A stretch of DNA of 23,120 nt, taken from positions 1 through 23,120 of IMG/VR virus record IMGVR_UViG_3300028190_000002, one strand, 5' to 3'. Every line of letters begins with the position of its first letter. Positions within the stretch are counted from its first letter, which is position 1. The notes beneath the pieces were generated by a model. That model was given only the letters and a program-made list of their open reading frames with translations, searched no databases and was not told the DNA's origin. Shown in pieces: positions 510 to 16,338 of this stretch. Origin of the DNA: a virus. Both the position numbers and the translations under genes were made by a program.

Positions 510-1808
510 TTATAATTCAACATCATTTTCGTCATCAGAAAGATCATCGTCGATGATCGGTGCATTAGGATCAAAATCTACTGCATTCAAGTCAACTCCA
601 GCATCAATCTTGGAGTAGAGATCAAGAATACTATTTCTAGTTTCTTCATCGAATCTTGAAATACACATTGAGATTGATTTGAGTTTGTCATCAAACATTC
701 TGAAAGCATTCACGATGTGAACCAAACGTCTAGTTGTTACAACATCGTCGATGGCACCCTCGTAATAAGTTTTTCTGATAATGTCTGCCCAGTCAACAAG
801 TTTTTTGCAAAACTCTTCATCAACTGCACCAGTCAATTCCATTTCTTTGTGAAGGATTTTGACCTCAGTTTTGATTGGTGGATATTCTTGCATCATTGTG
901 ATTGCAAATCTTTCCAACATGGCTTCGTTCATGATTTGAGTCCCGATGAACTTTCCATCTTCTGAACCTTGCCCTTTAGTGTTTGCAGTAGCAAGAACTG
1001 TAAATCCTGCTTTAGGAGTTACCCATTCACCAGTTTTCTTGATTAAGTATCCTTTACCCTCAAGAACTGATTGCATACACATGAGTTTGTTAGAACCCAA
1101 GTCAACTTCATCAAGAAGAAGGACTGCGCCTTTTCTCATTGCTTTGATCACTGGGCCTTCTCTGAAACAAATGTTTCCATTTATGAGAGTGTGTCCGCCC
1201 ATCAGATCATCTTCATCAGTTTCGATGGTGATGTTGACCCTGTAAAGTTCTCTTTTGAGAGCAGCACAAGTCTGTTCGACCATCAAAGTTTTACCATTAC
1301 CACTCAAACCAGTTACAAAAACTGGGAAGAAGATTTTGGATTTTATGATTTTTTTGACATCTTTGTAATGTCCAAATGGAACGTAGTTGACCATTTTCTC
1401 AGGAATAATTTTTACTCCCTCATCCAACAAGTTAACACTGGTTGCAGCTGCAACTGGCATATTCATTGGAGCTGCTGTAGCAGGAATTGCAACACCAGCA
1501 GGAACTTCTTGTTTAATAGGAATCGGCACTACCGTATCTCCACCTTGTGAGTAACCACCATTATAACCACCCAAAACTTGAGTAAGATTAAAGACAACAC
1601 CGTTGCCGTCAACTTCTTTTTCTTTGAATGGATATTTTGAACTTTTGATCCAGTAAGGAAGATAACCATCGGTCGCGTCCTTAATTTCTGATCTTGAAAA
1701 CGTTGTCTGATTAGGATAAGCACCTATCAGAATATCGAGAACTTCCGTCCTATCAGGCGATAGTGGAAAGTCTTTTCCGTTTACTAAGATTGTTTTTGTT
1801 TTTTTCAC
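510..1808 (-). CDS. cobS: CobS/MoxR-like AAA+ ATPase
   Basis: The 432-aa product is a MoxR/CobS-type AAA+ ATPase. Residues 1-130 form a poorly conserved N-terminal part with an Ala/Pro/Val-rich linker (about 90-125). The ATPase core has Walker A GLSGNGKT (167-174), Walker B AVLLLDEVD (about 228-236), a sensor-1 ATANT (273-277) and an arginine-finger-like LERF (298-301). The tail is acidic. CobS is the ATPase subunit of aerobic cobaltochelatase, and marine T4-like phages often carry such genes under that name. MoxR ATPases more generally pair with VWA proteins as chaperones, and a CobT-like VWA protein is encoded just upstream. No CobN is seen here, so a cobalamin role is not proven. The start is GTG at 1808, chosen because AGGAGA lies 4 nt upstream. 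A sigma70-type promoter precedes it. Confidence 0.85.
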   Translation of the reverse strand: MKKTKTILVNGKDFPLSPDRTEVLDILIGAYPNQTTFSRSEIKDATDGYLPYWIKSSKYPFKEKEVDGNGVVFNLTQVLGGYNGGYSQGGDTVVPIPIKQEVPAGVAIPATAAPMNMPVAAATSVNLLDEGVKIIPEKMVNYVPFGHYKDVKKIIKSKIFFPVFVTGLSGNGKTLMVEQTCAALKRELYRVNITIETDEDDLMGGHTLINGNICFREGPVIKAMRKGAVLLLDEVDLGSNKLMCMQSVLEGKGYLIKKTGEWVTPKAGFTVLATANTKGQGSEDGKFIGTQIMNEAMLERFAITMMQEYPPIKTEVKILHKEMELTGAVDEEFCKKLVDWADIIRKTYYEGAIDDVVTTRRLVHIVNAFRMFDDKLKSISMCISRFDEETRNSILDLYSKIDAGVDLNAVDFDPNAPIIDDDLSDDENDVEL

Positions 1809-1842
1809 GTGGTCTCCTCTATATCTCTCATCTTATATAGCT

Positions 1843-1872
1843 ATTATCTCAAATTGCTGGGGGCGCTGTCAA
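1843..1872 (-). promoter_or_regulatory. Sigma70-type early promoter for cobS-like gene (P1)
   Basis: Minus strand: TTGACA (1872-1867), 18-bp spacer starting GCGCCC, then GATAAT (1848-1843). The expected start of transcription near 1836 leaves a leader of about 28 nt holding the AGGAGA ribosome site. The -35 is preceded by AGGCC and lies only 5 nt past the stop codon of the upstream gene. The same extended motif recurs at 4660 and 4930. Confidence 0.8.
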
Positions 1873-1876
1873 GGCC

Positions 1877-2125
1877 TCATTTACATGGGAGCAGTTTTGC
1901 CCCAATTTTCTTTTGCTGTTTCGCATTCAATTTACCGCCATTATTAACCCAAATTCTAAATGCAAAACATTCGACCGCTTCCTCAGCGCATTTTGACTGT
2001 CTAGGACAATCATATCTCACGCAGGGAGAAGGGCCAACATCCATAACTGCATCGGCAAACTTGGAATAATTGCTGTTAAAAGAATGGTAATATGCGGGAT
2101 CAACCCTTAATGGTTCTCGCTTCAT
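1877..2125 (-). CDS. Cysteine-rich 82-aa hypothetical protein
   Basis: I do not recognise this 82-aa protein. Its centre holds four regularly spaced cysteines, C35-x4-C40-x5-C46-x6-C53, with a fifth at C81; such a cluster could bind zinc or an Fe-S centre, which is inference. The C-terminal third is basic (KQQKKIGAK). The start at 2125 is set by GGAGG 9 nt upstream and by a TAATG overlap with the stop codon of the 28-aa ORF before it, implying translational coupling. It sits between the CobT-like and CobS-like genes, so it may belong to the same functional module. It reads as a real gene, because its ribosome site, spacing and coupling are all good. Confidence 0.75.
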   Translation of the reverse strand: MKREPLRVDPAYYHSFNSNYSKFADAVMDVGPSPCVRYDCPRQSKCAEEAVECFAFRIWVNNGGKLNAKQQKKIGAKLLPCK

Positions 2126-2211
2126 TATGCCATACCTCCGTAATCGTCATTATTCACTATTATATAAATTAACATACCGATGATGAGCAAATAAAAAATT
2201 GTAGTCATCAT
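2125..2211 (-). CDS. 28-aa membrane microprotein between cobT-like and Cys4 genes
   Basis: A tiny ORF, MMTTIFYLLIIGMLIYIIV followed by NNDDYGGMA, fills the gap between the CobT-like gene and the 82-aa gene exactly. Its ATG overlaps the CobT stop (ATGA at 2208-2211) and its TAA overlaps the next ATG (TAATG at 2123-2127). Residues 4-19 form one hydrophobic helix followed by a polar, acidic tail, as in single-pass phage microproteins. A second ATG at 2208 would give 27 aa. No strong ribosome site is visible, so translation would depend on coupling to the CobT-like gene. The perfect fit at both ends is the main evidence that it is coding; function is unknown. Confidence 0.6.
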   Translation of the reverse strand: MMTTIFYLLIIGMLIYIIVNNDDYGGMA

Positions 2212-4628
2212 GCGATCTCTTTAATAAATTCGTTAGTCAAAAATCTTGAAGTAGTTTTTGATCTTTGGTTTCTTTTGAAAGCTGCCAACACTCTTACTTT
2301 TTTTGCATCGATGTATTCATCATCAAGTGCGTCTTCACCAGCTATTCCCAGTTTGTTAGCAGCAGTTAAGAACAGTTTGTTGTATCCGTGGATTTTAACA
2401 ACCTCACCGTCTTTTCTAATTCTTTTCCACATTGCTTTGTAGTCAAAGTATTCATCTGGCTTTCTTATGTAATAATAAAGGTTGTAGAGAGCACTTTTAC
2501 CACCAAGGCAAAAATATCCAGTCACACTTACACCAGTTTCTTCTGACAACCAGTGTAAAAGATTTTGTGTTTTCGAGAATTCTGAATGTTCAGTTGCTGT
2601 CTCGTAAGGATAAACTTTTCTAGAGTAAGGATCAATCAAATCTCTTTCGTATTTTGCACCCCATCTATCGCCAGTGTCTTTTTCTAGTAAATCTTTTTGA
2701 GAACTTCTATCTCTGCTCTCAGCATCATCCATTCTTAAAAGATCACTTTCATGAGAATACCCATCAGTGATTACAGTCAAAATTGATTTTTCGATTCCAT
2801 ATTCTCTATTGAACTCAGGAAGCATTTTTCTTAAAGCAAGTAATGTGTGATTTAATGGTGTTCCACCCAGTGAATATGAGTAAGGGGCCATTCTATCAGG
2901 AAGATCAATATACCCACCTTGATGCGGGTCAATGTATTCAAATCCGTCAAACCACTTGTTCCACTTGTCTATATGTTTGTAGAATTTTCTACCGTAACCA
3001 TGATCTGAAAAGTAATTGTTCCAAAGAGAAGACATGTTATCGAACATTTCTAAATATTCTTTTGGTCTCATCTTGTCGCTGAAAATTTCAACCAAACTTC
3101 CGCACTCTGAACCTGAGTTTTCTTCTTTATCGTCTCTTCTCAAACAATCTGAGAACAAATAAATTCTGAAAGGTATCTGAACTTTTCTGCAGAACTCAGC
3201 AAGAACAAATGCTTGTTCTAATAAATCTCCGACTTCTTTGTAAATTGAACCACTCCAATCCAGTAGGACGGTGATTCCGTGATTCTTACCATCAGGTAAG
3301 TAAGTAACTCTTTTGAAAACATCATCAACTATTTGATATTTTGCAAGTCTGTTCATGTCAAGTTCACCAGTTTTTGCGGTGAAAGCTTTCGCAGCTCTTT
3401 TTGCAGTCTGTTTCATTTCAAACTCTTTTGCCATGTGTGCAACGAGTTTTCTGTTTTTTGCTTGATGTCTTTTTCTAGTAAAGACTGCTCTTTCTTTACC
3501 TGTTTTTTTATCTGTATAACGATCTTCGTCAGTCCAAAATTTATGCCAGTCAGCAAGAACTCTTTTATAAGGATAAAGAACTGAATCTAGGTTTTTGTAA
3601 TCTTTGAATTTGTCAGTCAAGTTAATTTGTGTTCTGACTAATGGTTTTTCTTCTATGAATAATTCTTCATTGTTATGAGCATTGTGTTCTGTTATTGCTT
3701 CTCTTGCTCCAGTTTGATCATCATAGTCACCTGAGAATTTACCACCCTCTTGGCCACCGAGACCTTTTTGAGGATTATCAGATTCTTCATTACCGTCTTG
3801 ATCACCCTCACCATCAGCATCATCGTCAGTGTCAGAAGCTTCATCAGTAGATTCACCCTCTTCTTTAGGATCAGGAAGTTTATCTTCGTTTTCTTCGTCC
3901 CAAATGTCATCACTTACTGGACTACCAAATGAATCAACTTCTTCTTCGCCATCACCCTCTTCAGCTTCAACTTCCATAGATTCAAAATCATCTTCATCGA
4001 AATCAGGATCATCAGGGCCGGGAATATATGTCTGTGGGACTAAAGCTTCATCATGGTCACTTCTTTTTTCGTTATCTTTAGACCATTCATAAATTGCTTG
4101 AGAACATTCAACAACGTCGTTCCACGTGGAACAGTTTCTTGCCCAGTTTAAAAAATCGTGTTCTTCATCAGACCATTCAAGATGAATTTTTGATCCAACT
4201 TTGGTCTGTAAATTGATCTTATCAATTAGTGAAAGTTCTTTGAGATTTCTACCTTTAAGTCCGAAGAAATCTCTTCCCATTAAATCGTTGTAACCACCGT
4301 AGAAGGATTTTCTCAGGCCGGGATATTTGTTCTTGATTGCTTTTTCAATCCTAACATCCTCAATAACGTTGAGATACCCTTTAAGTGTTCTATTGTTTTC
4401 TAATGCATCATGTAGTCCCTCTGCTGGGGTATTCAATGCATGGCCAACTTCATGTCCCATAAAGAGATCATAAAGTGCGGGGGAGAGATCGTCCTTAAAA
4501 GTAGGACAACACAAAACTCTATTCTTTACGTCGAAATACGCAGTAGGAACCTTTTTATGAACGATGGTAAGATTTTCACTTGCCATCAATTTTGCAAGGT
4601 TGTCTTTTTGTGTTCTTATTTGATTCAT
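2208..4628 (-). CDS. cobT: CobT-like protein: HExxH metallopeptidase-like domain plus VWA domain
   Basis: The 806-aa product starts with a peptidase-like domain bearing HEVGH (59-63) and a downstream NVIEDVRIE (88-95) that could supply the third zinc ligand. Residues about 205-300 are a very acidic Asp/Glu linker. A C-terminal von Willebrand A domain has the MIDAS motif DWSGS (457-461), a later GGTP and VITDGYS. CobT subunits of cobaltochelatase share the acidic linker plus VWA layout and partner with CobS-type ATPases; the CobS-like gene lies downstream. The intact HExxH suggests protein handling or cleavage rather than only metal insertion, which is inference. No Shine-Dalgarno sequence is visible; the ATG lies 7 nt from a -10 box, so the mRNA may be leaderless. 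Confidence is high for the domains, low for the substrate. Confidence 0.85.
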   Translation of the reverse strand: MNQIRTQKDNLAKLMASENLTIVHKKVPTAYFDVKNRVLCCPTFKDDLSPALYDLFMGHEVGHALNTPAEGLHDALENNRTLKGYLNVIEDVRIEKAIKNKYPGLRKSFYGGYNDLMGRDFFGLKGRNLKELSLIDKINLQTKVGSKIHLEWSDEEHDFLNWARNCSTWNDVVECSQAIYEWSKDNEKRSDHDEALVPQTYIPGPDDPDFDEDDFESMEVEAEEGDGEEEVDSFGSPVSDDIWDEENEDKLPDPKEEGESTDEASDTDDDADGEGDQDGNEESDNPQKGLGGQEGGKFSGDYDDQTGAREAITEHNAHNNEELFIEEKPLVRTQINLTDKFKDYKNLDSVLYPYKRVLADWHKFWTDEDRYTDKKTGKERAVFTRKRHQAKNRKLVAHMAKEFEMKQTAKRAAKAFTAKTGELDMNRLAKYQIVDDVFKRVTYLPDGKNHGITVLLDWSGSIYKEVGDLLEQAFVLAEFCRKVQIPFRIYLFSDCLRRDDKEENSGSECGSLVEIFSDKMRPKEYLEMFDNMSSLWNNYFSDHGYGRKFYKHIDKWNKWFDGFEYIDPHQGGYIDLPDRMAPYSYSLGGTPLNHTLLALRKMLPEFNREYGIEKSILTVITDGYSHESDLLRMDDAESRDRSSQKDLLEKDTGDRWGAKYERDLIDPYSRKVYPYETATEHSEFSKTQNLLHWLSEETGVSVTGYFCLGGKSALYNLYYYIRKPDEYFDYKAMWKRIRKDGEVVKIHGYNKLFLTAANKLGIAGEDALDDEYIDAKKVRVLAAFKRNQRSKTTSRFLTNEFIKEIA

Positions 4629-4635
4629 TATGTAT

Positions 4636-4665
4636 ATGCTAACAGTTTGCCGTGGGCATTGTCAA
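4636..4665 (-). promoter_or_regulatory. Sigma70-type early promoter for cobT-like gene (P2)
   Basis: Minus strand: TTGACA (4665-4660), an 18-bp spacer starting ATGCCC, then TAGCAT (4641-4636), a weak -10 box. The expected start falls at about 4628-4630, on or next to the ATG. The -35 lies directly after the stop codon of the 71-aa gene. The upstream AGCC and the spacer GCCC...GC match P1 and P3. Confidence 0.65.
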
Positions 4666-4948: not shown

Positions 4949-5641
4949 CTATTTGTTTGAAACTGAGGCTATTCCGGCTGGAATATTTTTTGGAGCGTCG
5001 GCGATCTTGGTTGAGATTTCATTCAGCTCGATGTTTTTGACTACACCATCTGGCAACATTCTCTCTTGATTGGTGGTGAACCAAAAAGCTACTGTGTAGC
5101 GGTAGTTTCTACGTATTTTAAACACACCATGAGGGATGTAGATTCCTTGGAATAGCAATCCACTTCCTGCTGCTGGTTTGACTTGTTGGCCGAATGGATA
5201 CTGCTCACACGGTGGAAAGTAGGTCTCACCACCTGAGTAATCGTCGTTTAGATACAGAATACAAGTCCATTCACGAGAAGGATTCTCGTCTACGTTATTT
5301 TCTTTGAATTCGTCGTTGGAATATGTGTCTAGATGTGGGTCTTGAAGACCACCCAAATGCCATCTAGCAATGCTTATCATTTCAGGCCAGACAACCTGAT
5401 CAGATATCTTCCTTATCTCACCAATAAGAGTGAAATACATTCTTTGAATGTCTTCACGAATCGCCCTATTGCTGATGTGAATATATCGAATACCCACATA
5501 ATCTTTTTCGCTACCAACGCTTTCTAGGTGTCTATGCTGTTGATACCACTGAATCAGCCCCTGTCGACGTTCCTCGGACAGAAGATTCTCCACCATCGTG
5601 TGTTTGTATACTTCGATGTTTGGCTGCTTGTCTTCTTTCAT
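4949..5641 (-). CDS. 2OG-Fe(II) oxygenase, prolyl-4-hydroxylase-like
   Basis: The 230-aa protein carries the double-stranded beta-helix signature of Fe(II)/2-oxoglutarate dioxygenases: HLD (H103, D105), the distal histidine in IPHGVFKI (H171), and an arginine in RYTVAFWF (R181) to bind 2-oxoglutarate. The block YLNDDYSGGETYFP (130-143) is typical of prolyl-4-hydroxylase-type enzymes. Substrates of phage members are unknown. The start is uncertain: ATG 5641 overlaps the deformylase gene by 110 nt, and the next ATG at 5596 still overlaps. Neither has a clear ribosome site, but residues 10-30 already look domain-like, so the overlap is probably real. Confidence 0.82.
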   Translation of the reverse strand: MKEDKQPNIEVYKHTMVENLLSEERRQGLIQWYQQHRHLESVGSEKDYVGIRYIHISNRAIREDIQRMYFTLIGEIRKISDQVVWPEMISIARWHLGGLQDPHLDTYSNDEFKENNVDENPSREWTCILYLNDDYSGGETYFPPCEQYPFGQQVKPAAGSGLLFQGIYIPHGVFKIRRNYRYTVAFWFTTNQERMLPDGVVKNIELNEISTKIADAPKNIPAGIASVSNK

Positions 5642-6143
5642 AATCTAATCGTTTTCTTCGTTCTTTTGGTCGTGCTTTTATAGCTCGTTCTATCTTTAAT
5701 TGTGACGCACGTTGGAGAAATAAAATACCATTAAGATGATCTATTTCATGTTGAGCACATCTTGCACCCATTCCATCCATCATTAATATCTGTTCTTCAC
5801 CACTGCTATCTGTGAATGTAAATTCAATGTTTTTTGGACGCTTTATCATTAAGTATATATCGGGGAATGAAAGGCAGCCTTCTCGCATCAACTCTGTTTC
5901 CTGAGATAGTCTCTTGATTTCGGGATTAAAGAATGCCATGGTTCCTTTATCAGCTGTTCTCATCACAAAAACCCTGTATGGTAAGCCTACTTGATTTGCG
6001 GATAAACCTAATCCACCCCATTTTTCAATAAGATCACCAAGATTCTTTTCTATTACTTTAGGGTCTTCAGGCGGATTATTAAAGTCGAACTCATCAGGTG
6101 GTGTTCGCAAAACCTTTGAAGCTTCTTCTACTAACTTATACAT
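5532..6143 (-). CDS. def: Peptide deformylase
   Basis: All three deformylase motifs are present: GLGLSANQ (44-51), EGCLS (88-92; C90 is the metal ligand) and HEIDH (132-136). The enzyme removes the N-formyl group from new proteins; T4-like marine phages and cyanophages often encode one. The body ends around residue 165, after which a basic stretch (KARPKERRKRLDYERR) and a Ser/Thr/Gly-rich tail follow. Residues from about 168 to 203 are read through the start of the 2OG oxygenase gene in another frame, so the tail is probably an overprinted addition. GGTAGG precedes the start, which follows the 18-aa ORF by 1 nt. Confidence 0.93.
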   Translation of the reverse strand: MYKLVEEASKVLRTPPDEFDFNNPPEDPKVIEKNLGDLIEKWGGLGLSANQVGLPYRVFVMRTADKGTMAFFNPEIKRLSQETELMREGCLSFPDIYLMIKRPKNIEFTFTDSSGEEQILMMDGMGARCAQHEIDHLNGILFLQRASQLKIERAIKARPKERRKRLDYERRQAAKHRSIQTHDGGESSVRGTSTGADSVVSTA

Positions 6144-6210: not shown

Positions 6211-7581
6211 TTATTTCTTAAGTAAGCCGTTATATTTTACTGAAAGGTTATAGAATTGTCCTAACTTATGTCCTAAACCTGTCTTGTTTGTTCTTACTGT
6301 CATCTGCATGATGATTACATCTTTATTAGATTTTAGATGTAAAAACCAATTCTGTTTTGATGCTTTACTAGCTTCTGCTTTAATGAATTTAACTACTGGG
6401 AGAAATACTCCTAATTCATCGTCATCTGTTACCTGTTCGTATGACTTTCCAATACCTTTAATAACCTTGGTAGGAACATCAGGAGCGTCTCTAAGAATTG
6501 CAGTCTTAATGTATTGCATTGACGCATCTTTACTCTGATTAAATAAGTCAATCAATGTCTGCCTAATGATCTCTAGCTGGACGTTATAGAGTCTTTCATA
6601 CTCAGTCTTATTAGTTCTCTCTAATTGCTTTAGAACGTCATATGAGGCCTTTCTACCCGACTTGCTATCATATGTTTTTGCATCAGGCATACCTTCTATC
6701 TTTGAATATACTTCTTTATATAATTTCTGAGATAGTTTAGGAACCTGATTTCCTTTTTTCATTGTCTGAAATATTGGATTAACGTAGGTGTTGAGTTTAG
6801 GTTCAGTTGATTTCTTTCCACCAGCCTTTAATGATGTGCCTAAGATTTGCTTGTCTGCAAACTGTATGAATATGTCGCCGGGATGGTTTTTGGGAACACC
6901 ACTTGGTTTAGCACGATAACCCCAGTATACTTGTTTAACTGGTTTTAATTTGTTCTCATCAGTAATATACTTGTGTATTCCTATTGCATTTTGCATCTTC
7001 TCATCAAATTTAGATGAATCTTCTGCTTTTGCAACCGTGTCTTTGGCTGCTTGTCTATCGCTGGCAGCGACACATTTAAACTTATCTACGTCCTGTTTTA
7101 ACAACCAATCATAAAATGATGGAACTGATTTTGGTTTATGTTTCTTTTCCCATGCCATACAGGGAAACAATTCAGTGATACTTGAGTTGAGTGTGGTCTC
7201 ACCCATACCACCTGATTTAGGTTTAAATAAAAATATGACATTTTGACCATCTTCGAAGTTGTCTAGGAAAATTGGGTCAAAACTAGATTTTGAACTTCCT
7301 CTAATCTCATGCTGAATTCCAGCGTCCTTTAGATTTTTTTCCAATTCATCCCTGTCACTAGCTCTATCGGCTCCCCTAATAAGAAAAACTGTTGTTCTAG
7401 AATTGGAAGACTTATGTCTAGCTATTTCAAATTCACTATAGACATCTTTGGGAAATGCTGTAAGTTGAACCTCTTCAATAAGGTCATCTATTCTAGCTAA
7501 ATCAATAGTTGGGGTCTTTAAAGGTATACCCTCGAAAGTTATGGTTCCGAGTTTATACGTGATTTCTGAAAAAGTTTTCAT
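6211..7581 (-). CDS. 456-aa unknown protein, possible PD-(D/E)XK-like nuclease
   Basis: I cannot name this 456-aa protein. The middle holds PGDIFIQFADK followed by ILGTSLKAGGKK (235-257), a layout like the PGD...(E/S)xK active site of PD-(D/E)XK nucleases with SLK in place of ExK. An upstream block, GETTLNSSITELFP (127-140), could supply the helical glutamate. These are pattern resemblances, not proof. The ends are rich in Lys. It follows gp46 by 11 nt and precedes the deformylase, so it probably shares the recombination operon. No Shine-Dalgarno is seen; a late-type AATAAATA box lies 5 nt before the ATG. Confidence 0.7.
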   Translation of the reverse strand: MKTFSEITYKLGTITFEGIPLKTPTIDLARIDDLIEEVQLTAFPKDVYSEFEIARHKSSNSRTTVFLIRGADRASDRDELEKNLKDAGIQHEIRGSSKSSFDPIFLDNFEDGQNVIFLFKPKSGGMGETTLNSSITELFPCMAWEKKHKPKSVPSFYDWLLKQDVDKFKCVAASDRQAAKDTVAKAEDSSKFDEKMQNAIGIHKYITDENKLKPVKQVYWGYRAKPSGVPKNHPGDIFIQFADKQILGTSLKAGGKKSTEPKLNTYVNPIFQTMKKGNQVPKLSQKLYKEVYSKIEGMPDAKTYDSKSGRKASYDVLKQLERTNKTEYERLYNVQLEIIRQTLIDLFNQSKDASMQYIKTAILRDAPDVPTKVIKGIGKSYEQVTDDDELGVFLPVVKFIKAEASKASKQNWFLHLKSNKDVIIMQMTVRTNKTGLGHKLGQFYNLSVKYNGLLKK

Positions 7582-12090: not shown

Positions 12091-13496
12091 TACTTTAAGT
12101 CGAATTGTTTGATCTCATAAGGAAAATTCTCCTCGTTGTAGATATTTATACGATCCTTACAGTGCTTGAGAGTATAATTATCGTTCTGTAAATCATCCGC
12201 TATATCAAACAATCTCATAGAATCCTTACCTTCAACCTTTCTTAGGCCTCTCCCAATGGATTGTAGATTTCTAATTCTTGACTTGGATGGTGATGCAAAG
12301 ACTATATTATCAATCTTTTTAATGTTCACACCAGTAGAAAATGTTCCATAGGAAGCTAGAATAACGTCGTTCTTTTTAGTCTCTACAATTTCTCTGACCT
12401 TCTCTCTATCTTCCGTATCTGTTCCACCATACACATAATGTAAAGATTTAGGTATTCTCTTAAACATTTTTTGTTGTAATACGACACCATGTTTCTCTAC
12501 GAACTGAAACAACACAAGAGTATTGCCTTTAAGACTATAAGTTAAATTACAAATAAAGTCGTTCCTACTATCACAGCCCACTAAGTAATCCATTTCATCT
12601 TTATAGGTCATCTTCTTTTGTTTAGTATGACGTAGTATGACACAATCAATATCAATATTTGCAATCGTGCCAGCTTCCATCAACTCTGAGGAAGATACAA
12701 CTTTTTTAACGGGGCCGAACAGGCCTTCCAGCTGAAGTCTGTGGACTTCATTACTGTCTAATGTTCCTGTTGTTCCAAACCTTAATGCAGTAGTCTTCAT
12801 CTTCTCAAGGATGCCTTTAAGTGTTTGTGCTTTAAACAAGTGTGCTTCATCACCCACAACCATGTCAAATGATTGTATAACATCTTTAGGAGCTCTACTT
12901 AATGATTGCCATGTAGTAATAGTAATAGGTGCATCAAACACTTCTTGTCCATGATAAATTTTACACATCTTGCCTTTATGACCATAGTCTATAAAATCTT
13001 TATACATCTGTTCTACTAAAGCGGTAGTAGGAACAATTATAACTGTCTTCTTATCATAGTATCTTGCCAACATATAGATGATAAGAGATTTACCACTTGC
13101 AGTTGGTGACACCAATAGTTGTCTACCATATTTGATTGCATCTAGAAATGCTTCTAATTGGTAATCTCTTGGTGCAAATGGTAGTTTAAGAGACTTTGCA
13201 AACTCTTCTAAATTTTTGAGTTCATTCCTTTCTCCAATAACATCCTGTATCCCCTCAATATCATATCCACGCTCTCTACAGAACTCATCGACATAAGGAA
13301 GTAAACCAATATAAACTCTATGGGTTTTTATTGAAAACAGGTAAACCTTACCATCCCAATACTTGTTGCGATATGATGGCATGAACTTTGCATTTGGAAC
13401 TGCAAAGGAAAAGAATTCATGCAAGTCTTTGGCTAGGCCATCATCACATTCGACATGCATGAAGACATCGTCAACTTTCGAAACTATGATTTTCAT
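12090..13496 (-). CDS. uvsW: UvsW helicase
   Basis: This superfamily 2 helicase has 468 residues from the chosen start MKIIVSKVDD. Motifs: DYQ (111-113), Walker A PTASGKS (131-137), DEAH (216-219), FGTTGT (240-245) and QSIGRGLRK near the C terminus. T4 UvsW rewinds and branch-migrates DNA, unwinds R-loops and helps switch from origin- to recombination-dependent replication. The N-terminal FFSF, N.KYWDGK resembles the T4 protein's substrate-binding domain. An upstream GTG or TTG would add 10 residues overlapping the previous gene; the ATG at 13496, 2 nt after that stop, is preferred. Confidence 0.93.
   Translation of the reverse strand: MKIIVSKVDDVFMHVECDDGLAKDLHEFFSFAVPNAKFMPSYRNKYWDGKVYLFSIKTHRVYIGLLPYVDEFCRERGYDIEGIQDVIGERNELKNLEEFAKSLKLPFAPRDYQLEAFLDAIKYGRQLLVSPTASGKSLIIYMLARYYDKKTVIIVPTTALVEQMYKDFIDYGHKGKMCKIYHGQEVFDAPITITTWQSLSRAPKDVIQSFDMVVGDEAHLFKAQTLKGILEKMKTTALRFGTTGTLDSNEVHRLQLEGLFGPVKKVVSSSELMEAGTIANIDIDCVILRHTKQKKMTYKDEMDYLVGCDSRNDFICNLTYSLKGNTLVLFQFVEKHGVVLQQKMFKRIPKSLHYVYGGTDTEDREKVREIVETKKNDVILASYGTFSTGVNIKKIDNIVFASPSKSRIRNLQSIGRGLRKVEGKDSMRLFDIADDLQNDNYTLKHCKDRINIYNEENFPYEIKQFDLK
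12143..12150 (-). promoter_or_regulatory. Possible internal late promoter at the end of uvsW
   Basis: A perfect TATAAATA on the minus strand lies inside the last part of UvsW, about 50 nt before the Sm-like gene. It could boost late expression of that gene, or be chance within coding sequence. Confidence 0.3.
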
Positions 13497-15712: not shown

Positions 15713-16003
15713 ATGATGAAAAAAGAAACGAGAAATGAAATGGAAGCAGGTGAATTCACCTTTACAGTGTGGCTCCGACGATGGGACAATGGACGTTCTA
15801 TCACGACTTGGATTGTGGCTCGCGACGAAGACGATGCCCAATTTCAGGCCAACATGGTTCGAGAGGTATGGCAACTCAAAGGTCTTATCCAACTCGACGG
15901 GCCTGAACAAGCAGAAATGTGGGAAGACTTCGTTGACTTCGATGACCTCTGTCGAGACTTCCTTCATGAAGTTGGGATTCGTGAAGTTGAGGAGGTTGCG
16001 TAA
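15713..16003 (+). CDS. 96-aa acidic hypothetical protein (plus-strand cassette)
   Basis: I do not recognise this protein. It is acidic and Trp-rich, with FTFTVWLRRWDNGR near the start and WIVARDEDDAQFQANMV in the middle; the strand-helix layout suggests a small globular fold. The real start may be the second ATG (15716, MKKETRN), because the promoter start point lies there and no Shine-Dalgarno precedes either ATG. By my count its GC content is about 48%, clearly above its neighbours, which hints at acquisition from elsewhere. It is one of only two plus-strand genes here; its TAA overlaps the next ATG (TAATG). Confidence 0.7.
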   Translation: MMKKETRNEMEAGEFTFTVWLRRWDNGRSITTWIVARDEDDAQFQANMVREVWQLKGLIQLDGPEQAEMWEDFVDFDDLCRDFLHEVGIREVEEVA

Positions 16004-16338
16004 TGAACATTGTTGACGTTGTCGAATTTCTCAAAGACCAAGATGATATGGACATGTTAAACGAATTCTGTCATGAGTTCAATTACATCATGCAAGAAAA
16101 ACGTGAAGCCATTAGTCTTAATAAAAAAACCAAAATTAATTGTGGTGATATAGTCAAGGTCAACATGGGGCCCTTGGAAGGATACGTTGAAATGTATGTT
16201 AAAAAATTAAACCCCAAAAAAGCCGTTTGTCAACGAGGTAATAAGGTTGGGAAAATGGTAAATTACACTGTTCCATATGAAATGATTTCAGAAGTTGTAT
16301 CATCGGTTAGAACGGGAAATCAAGGAGAACGATTCTAA
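16003..16338 (+). CDS. 111-aa protein with KOW/SH3-like segment
   Basis: The N-terminal part (1-40) is helical and acidic. Residues about 45-95 (INCGDIVKVNMGPLEGYVEMYV, KKAVCQRG, YTVPYEMIS) resemble an SH3-like or KOW-type beta barrel, found in RNA-binding and transcription factors; this is pattern resemblance only. GAGGAGG lies 8 nt upstream of the ATG, which overlaps the stop of the 96-aa gene. A role in transcription or translation control early in infection is possible. It is closed by the hairpin at 16345-16364. Confidence 0.7.
   Translation: MNIVDVVEFLKDQDDMDMLNEFCHEFNYIMQEKREAISLNKKTKINCGDIVKVNMGPLEGYVEMYVKKLNPKKAVCQRGNKVGKMVNYTVPYEMISEVVSSVRTGNQGERF

Follow-up and report, generated by a model that had tools for sequence, protein, structure and literature searches.

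A MoxR-type AAA+ ATPase and a VWA protein with a zincin-like domain in the replication block of marine T4-like phages

Databases usually place a pair of phage genes, one encoding an AAA+ ATPase and the other its von Willebrand factor A (VWA) partner, under vitamin B12 synthesis. The ATPase gene belongs to the core gene set of marine cyanophages, and studies in viral ecology widely tally it under vitamin B12. Two published readings of such pairs conflict. One describes the viral pair as cobST, which would hijack CobN, and calls the phage cobT 'mistakenly annotated as a peptidase' (PMC8651126). The other reports, for jumbo phages of group 2.2, a MoxR protein with a vWA-metallopeptidase and suggests, by analogy with Acidianus two-tailed virus, a function in virion assembly with processing (PMC7824862). 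In NorQD, the VWA domain inserts a finger into the pore of the AAA+ protein, and the linker that joins it to the N-terminal domain is stretched by a rotation powered by ATP (PMC13036017). Here we analyze the pair found in IMG/VR record IMGVR_UViG_3300028190_000002, positions 1 to 23,120, a viral stretch of 23,120 bases (the window) that comes from a T4-like phage. The isolates nearest to its portal protein are the OM43 phage Melnitz (57%) and the SAR11 phage Mosig (56%).

We lean toward reading the pair as a MoxR-type AAA+ machine with a metallopeptidase-bearing VWA partner, and not as a cobaltochelatase. The grounds for choosing between the published readings are the zinc motif, the fold, the failure of curated models, the promoters and the location in the replication block. 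Our comparison sample comprised 198 viral loci in three groups. Residue invariance was judged on 91 diverse phage relatives of the VWA protein, and the gene-order counts take in contigs long enough to tell.

Domain architecture of the VWA protein and its ATPase

All four open reading frames (ORFs) considered here are on the minus strand and follow, in order of transcription, as the HExxH/VWA gene, a 28-residue ORF, a gene for a four-cysteine (Cys4) protein and the AAA+ gene. The HExxH/VWA protein (2208..4628) has 806 residues, matches the phrog_459 'peptidase' profile with an E value of 2.7e-152 and belongs to cyanophage cluster T4-GC 146. It starts with a zincin-like metallopeptidase domain (about residues 1-195; 4044..4628), predicted from AlphaFold2 models and fold matches. 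An acidic disordered linker follows (about residues 197-300; 3729..4040), with a predicted local distance difference test score (pLDDT) below 50 at residues 197-299. The C-terminal part, about residues 373-806 (2211..3512), contains a helical linker and the VWA domain. The metal ion-dependent adhesion site (MIDAS) of this domain is complete (D457-x-S459-x-S461, T590 and D622), and all its residues are identical in 91/91 relatives.

Two motifs mark the zincin domain: HEVGH at residues 59-63 (4440..4454), where HExxH is found in all 91 relatives, and NVIEDVRIE at residues 87-95 (4344..4370). Residues H59, E60, H63, N87, E90, D91 and R93 are identical in every relative, while mean column identity is 52% for the zincin domain and 35% for the whole protein. 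HExxH is therefore not a chance pentamer. E90 is likely the third zinc ligand, and H59, E60, H63 and E90 together fit a gluzincin-type zincin metallopeptidase, for which zinc binding and peptide cleavage are predicted.

The predicted structures point in the same direction. Folded alone as residues 1-197, the zincin domain reached a pLDDT of 85.3, and its top solved folds are nearly all zincins, including minigluzincins and zincins of the M48, M56 and ArdC types. The minigluzincin jannalysin was matched with a Foldseek probability of 1.00 (E 0.035), while ZMPSTE24, ArdC, BlaR1 and BepA gave Z scores of 6-6.5; IrrE/PprI was also matched. The HExxH helix (residues 50-66) and the helix carrying E90 (residues 80-101) were both modeled with high confidence, as expected for a zincin. 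Among viral models, the zincin domain recurs in phage and haloarchaeal-virus proteins named CobT-like or VWFA. The full-length model has a pLDDT of 76. The best solved fold for its VWA domain is the midasin/Rea1 MIDAS domain (Z 15.3, 224 aligned residues, root-mean-square deviation 3.8), followed by the NorD VWA domain (Z 14.8, 225 aligned, deviation 4.1). Solved CobT structures exist, and none is among the fold matches listed. A search of PDB sequences with the VWA profile returned chance matches only, mostly to low-complexity regions. The initial annotation had seen the HEVGH motif, the acidic linker and the MIDAS-bearing VWA domain in one protein, as the ORF and the alignment bear out. Its view of a metallopeptidase-VWA and MoxR architecture with an intact zinc motif agrees with profiles, invariance and folds alike.

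The AAA+ protein (510..1808) has 432 residues, a GTG start and an N-terminal extension of about 130 residues. Its core, at about residues 157-400 (609..1340), contains Walker A (GLSGNGKT), Walker B (LLLDEVD), sensor 1 (ATANT), ERF and sensor 2 (TRR), and both Walker motifs and both sensors are intact in the alignment. Its profile matches are phrog_249 'porphyrin biosynthesis' (E 7e-112) and AAA_5 (E 1.2e-17). Together with the full motif set, the AAA_5 match upholds the assignment to the MoxR/CobS type. Solved relatives are midasin, CobS and NorQ.

The Cys4 protein (82 residues, 1877..2125), a predicted zinc-binding adaptor, is the third conserved gene in the clade of the window and lies between the VWA and AAA+ genes in 68/68 loci of that clade. 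In a scan with a Cys4 profile, the VWA gene was upstream in all 70 testable cases and the AAA+ gene downstream in all 76. The protein in the window has five cysteines, four of them invariant (C35, C40, C46 and C53), and the invariant residues also include an A-F-R-x-W-x-N motif. No convincing relative was found in PHROG, Pfam or PDB, and tblastn gave no match in 50,697 phage records. The 28-residue hydrophobic peptide (2125..2211) is not conserved and is probably outside the module, since at its position other loci carry either an unrelated small gene or none. The initial annotation had suggested that all four genes could be one functional unit. We rejected this unit because of the peptide. 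The order is conserved for the VWA and AAA+ genes and, within the clade, for the Cys4 gene, so that the conserved unit has three genes in the clade of the window and two elsewhere.

Gene order, promoters and possible function

The order gp46 (recombination), HExxH/VWA gene, AAA+ gene, gp45 (sliding clamp) is nearly universal. Of 139 testable contigs, 138 have the AAA+ gene downstream of the VWA gene; gp46 is upstream in 105/110 and gp45 is downstream in 123/131. The sole exception among the 139 is a 136-kb contig (L117), where the VWA gene has no AAA+ gene within 4 kb downstream. In annotated phages both genes are equal in number (Synechococcus 365/365, Cyanophage 61/61, Prochlorococcus 24/24 and Pelagibacter 3/3), as totals by host-name group and not record by record. 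The SAR11 phages HTVC008M and Mosig carry the pair. A genome-wide search of Melnitz (EXVC044M) found neither gene, and the block from gp46 through peptide deformylase to DUF3310 and gp45 is still present there. This fits joint gain or loss of the VWA and AAA+ genes. As the nearest isolate by portal protein, Melnitz offers a natural comparison for the function of the pair.

Two sigma70-type promoters were found by consensus match on the minus strand: TTGACA-18-TAGCAT directly before the VWA gene (4636..4665) and TTGACA-18-GATAAT before the AAA+ gene (1843..1872). Exact TTGACA occurs upstream of the VWA gene in 46/50 unique sequences and upstream of the AAA+ gene in 40/47. Promoter scores of at least 10/12 were obtained for 43/50 and 39/47 of these regions respectively, compared with 2.6-2.7% of shuffled sequences. 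A similar site precedes the VWA gene in HTVC008M and Mosig; by the same rule, S-PM2 and P-SSM2 show no such promoter before this gene. In the upstream regions of loci L001 to L080 the promoters resemble TTGACA-18-TATACT, with an 18-nucleotide spacer dominant. The distance from the end of the -10 box to the start codon is often about 6 nucleotides, so that the mRNAs would have almost no leader.

The T4 late-promoter-like motif TATAAATA is absent from all 50 unique regions upstream of the VWA gene and all 47 upstream of the AAA+ gene. Exact copies occur in the window at 12143, 14755, 15648, 16643, 19438 and 22110 (minus strand). All six are on the coding strand, and five lie no more than 60 nucleotides upstream of genes, gp20 and gp22 among them. 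These patterns support early or middle expression by a host-type sigma70. The initial annotation had assigned the pair to an early region, which gains indirect support from these motifs. A paper on pelagiphage transcriptomes makes no mention of HTVC008M, myophages or CobS (PMC12753301).

We propose that the AAA+ protein would form a hexameric ring on which the VWA domain docks, with the target presented through the MIDAS. By analogy with NorQ-NorD (PMC13036017), ATP hydrolysis would twist the VWA and N-terminal zincin domains against each other, and the bound protein would be remodeled and then cut, or remodeled only. In the clade of the window, the Cys4 protein probably binds zinc and serves as an adaptor, selecting the target or passing it on. 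Because the sigma70-type promoters lie inside the replication/recombination block, this target probably belongs to the host or to the replication or transcription proteins of the phage, and not to the virion. A more detailed proposal, which we put forward tentatively, is that the pair may be a core ATP-driven, target-selective metalloprotease of marine T4-like phages, guided by Cys4 in some lineages, that early in infection acts on a replication/transcription complex of host or phage, by cutting or remodeling it, with 'cobS' as its motor. If the AAA+ protein is the motor of a peptidase-bearing machine, counts of 'cobS' do not report B12 metabolism, and an abundant phage function is unstudied.

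Some points weigh against a metalloprotease. Scores for the fold of the zincin domain are modest, with a best Z of 6.5 and a Foldseek E value of 0.035. The promoter evidence consists of consensus matches in related sequences, and loci from the same clade do not count as independent. The invariant metal site could also serve metal transfer instead of proteolysis.

Alternatively, the pair could be a chaperone for virion assembly that includes its own processing peptidase, as suggested for the group 2.2 jumbo phages (PMC7824862). The architecture is the same as in that group, MoxR-VWA pairs act in the assembly of multiprotein complexes, and genes for hsp20 and the prohead protease are also present in genomes with the pair. 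Early expression would be compatible with a late role. We nevertheless regard such a chaperone as unlikely, because the pair lies between gp46 and gp45, away from head and tail genes, the late motif that precedes gp20, gp22 and others in the window is missing from the 50 and 47 unique regions upstream of the two genes, and Melnitz builds a T4-like virion without the pair.

Relation to CobS, CobT and CobN

In the common auxiliary-gene reading of 'cobS', the viral pair replaces host CobS and CobT and, with host CobN, raises cobalamin during infection (PMC8651126). The AAA+ core does resemble CobS, with 82.1 bits against the curated CobS equivalog TIGR01650 and an E value of 1e-22 to solved CobS. 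However, this score is far under the cut-off of 558.55 (genuine CobS scores 558.0), and midasin is a stronger match than CobS among solved ATPases. The CobS_N domain PF12556 was not found in the AAA+ protein of the window and is present in genuine CobS (L277). The 806-residue protein had no match to the CobT models TIGR01651, PF06213 and PF11775, where genuine CobT reached 864 bits; HHalign of the phage protein to CobT gave 56% over 80 columns. Membership in the cobaltochelatase was rejected on these failures of the curated CobS and CobT models.

Phage-encoded CobN is absent from all 18 phage records searched, including the complete genomes of HTVC008M, Mosig, S-PM2 and P-SSM2. This bears out the earlier remark that no CobN was in view. 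As an argument it carries less weight, since among 142 alphaproteobacterial genomes, some of them draft, a CobT was detected in 107 and a CobN in 55, so that about half of the CobT-bearing genomes also show none. Missing CobN alone proves little, and we dropped it as decisive proof. The same counts suggest that many cells may have CobST but no CobN, and that CobST may serve another purpose there. Cyanobacterial hosts could supply CobN, as a Synechococcus bin (G018) has it. A class I ribonucleotide reductase, which is B12-independent, scored over the cut-off in 7/8 records tested of phages with the pair, and the B12-dependent NrdJ in 0/17, so the argument commonly given for boosting B12 has little force. 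The pair is also present in the SAR11 phages HTVC008M and Mosig, and SAR11 is not known to synthesize B12, which counts against a viral CobST. A SAM-V riboswitch search for SAR11 genomes gave three weak matches only, and the literature yielded no explicit statement on B12 synthesis in SAR11.

The zinc motif separates the phage protein from CobT, as HExxH is invariant in the phage relatives and occurs in 0/34 genuine CobT. The statement that the phage protein is mistakenly called a peptidase (PMC8651126) is thus not supported by the sequences. When bacterial genomes were scanned with the phage profile, phage contigs were recovered, together with a mobile-element family with HExxH, NIIEDxRIE and a VWA domain, encoded beside an AAA+ gene. 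Plasmids too encode similar proteins: 1,895 records have them, and 1,510 of these are conjugative. The zincin domain of this family aligns to the phage domain (HHalign 98.8%, E 4.5e-17), and its N-terminal domain to Pfam CobT (E 1.9e-12). Where the phage and mobile-element relatives have HExxH, genuine CobT has RGxADALALRL; at the aligned downstream site CobT keeps E-Q-A-R-C-E and the relatives have E-D-x-R-I-E. In an Azospirillum mobile-element relative (L239/L285), HEAGGH (HExxxH) replaces HExxH, possibly an inactive or altered site. The simplest reading of these alignments is that CobT is a descendant or sister of an active zincin and has lost the metal site, which phages retain under strict selection. 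Considering this evidence together, we find a viral CobST quite improbable.

Little credit is given to a NorQD-like chaperone that supplies a phage metalloenzyme with iron or some other metal and uses HExxH as a metal relay, not as a peptidase. NorQD and CobNST are indeed metal-insertion machines, and genes for an Fe(II)/2-oxoglutarate oxygenase and peptide deformylase are often neighbors. However, the domain has the fold and the motif order of a zincin peptidase, the neighboring genes vary while the cassette is constant, and such enzymes are usually loaded with iron without a dedicated AAA+ machine.

Other genes were observed in the window. The peptide deformylase (5532-6143, minus strand) has an additional C-terminal extension of about 50 residues that is largely basic; pelagimyophages likewise have a deformylase in a DNA-metabolism operon (PMC7029224). 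Between gp46 and the deformylase is a gene for a 456-residue protein (6211-7581, minus strand) that matches phrog_2496, of unknown function (E 1.5e-111). Two plus-strand ORFs (15713-16003 and 16003-16338; 96 and 111 residues) lie within the otherwise minus-strand late-gene region. Rfam found no family within the window. A role in antiphage defense was also considered and dropped, as PADLOC gave no match for the proteins of the window.

Comparison with known systems

The cyanophage 'peptidase' (T4-GC 146) and 'cobS' (T4-GC 150), or viral 'cobST' (PMC8651126), belong to the same families and have the same gene order as the pair in the window. Identity to the cyanophage proteins is about 30% for the VWA protein and about 60% for the AAA+ core, and the clade of the window has the Cys4 gene in addition. 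The published readings of the cyanophage pair are related to B12, and our data argue against them.

CobNST shares the combination of a MoxR-class AAA+ protein and a VWA partner. The AAA+ cores remotely share ancestry, and the N-terminal domains are probably of common ancestry, via the mobile-element proteins. The phage pair differs in lacking CobN, CobS_N and a CobT match, in the AAA+ score below the CobS cut-off and in keeping the zinc motif. In contrast to the phage protein, no zincin domain is known from NorD or midasin. NorQ-NorD (PMC13036017) and midasin/Rea1 have in common with it an AAA+ ring with a MIDAS-bearing VWA domain, and they provide the closest solved VWA folds. The plasmid and mobile-element 'VWA domain-containing protein' also has a zincin domain with HExxH and NIIEDxRIE, a VWA domain and an AAA+ gene nearby; similarity is remote, the AAA+ gene is upstream and the other genes of the cluster differ.

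The group 2.2 pair (ASV44728/ASV44729), likened to the present one by its described architecture, also consists of a MoxR AAA+ protein beside a vWA protein with an N-terminal metallopeptidase, in T4-related phages (PMC7824862). The initial annotation was thus right about the architecture, which is not new, and the system cannot be called undescribed, as PMC8651126 also has the viral pair as cobST. Group 2.2 contains mostly gammaproteobacterial jumbo phages, whereas the pair here belongs to the marine cyanophage/pelagiphage line, cyanophages being group 2.1 in PMC7824862. It also differs in its fixed site between gp46 and gp45 and in the third gene, Cys4, of one clade. What is new is that this architecture is locked in the replication block of the cyanophage/pelagiphage line, with an invariant zinc motif that separates it from CobT, a clade-specific third gene and promoters pointing to early or middle expression.

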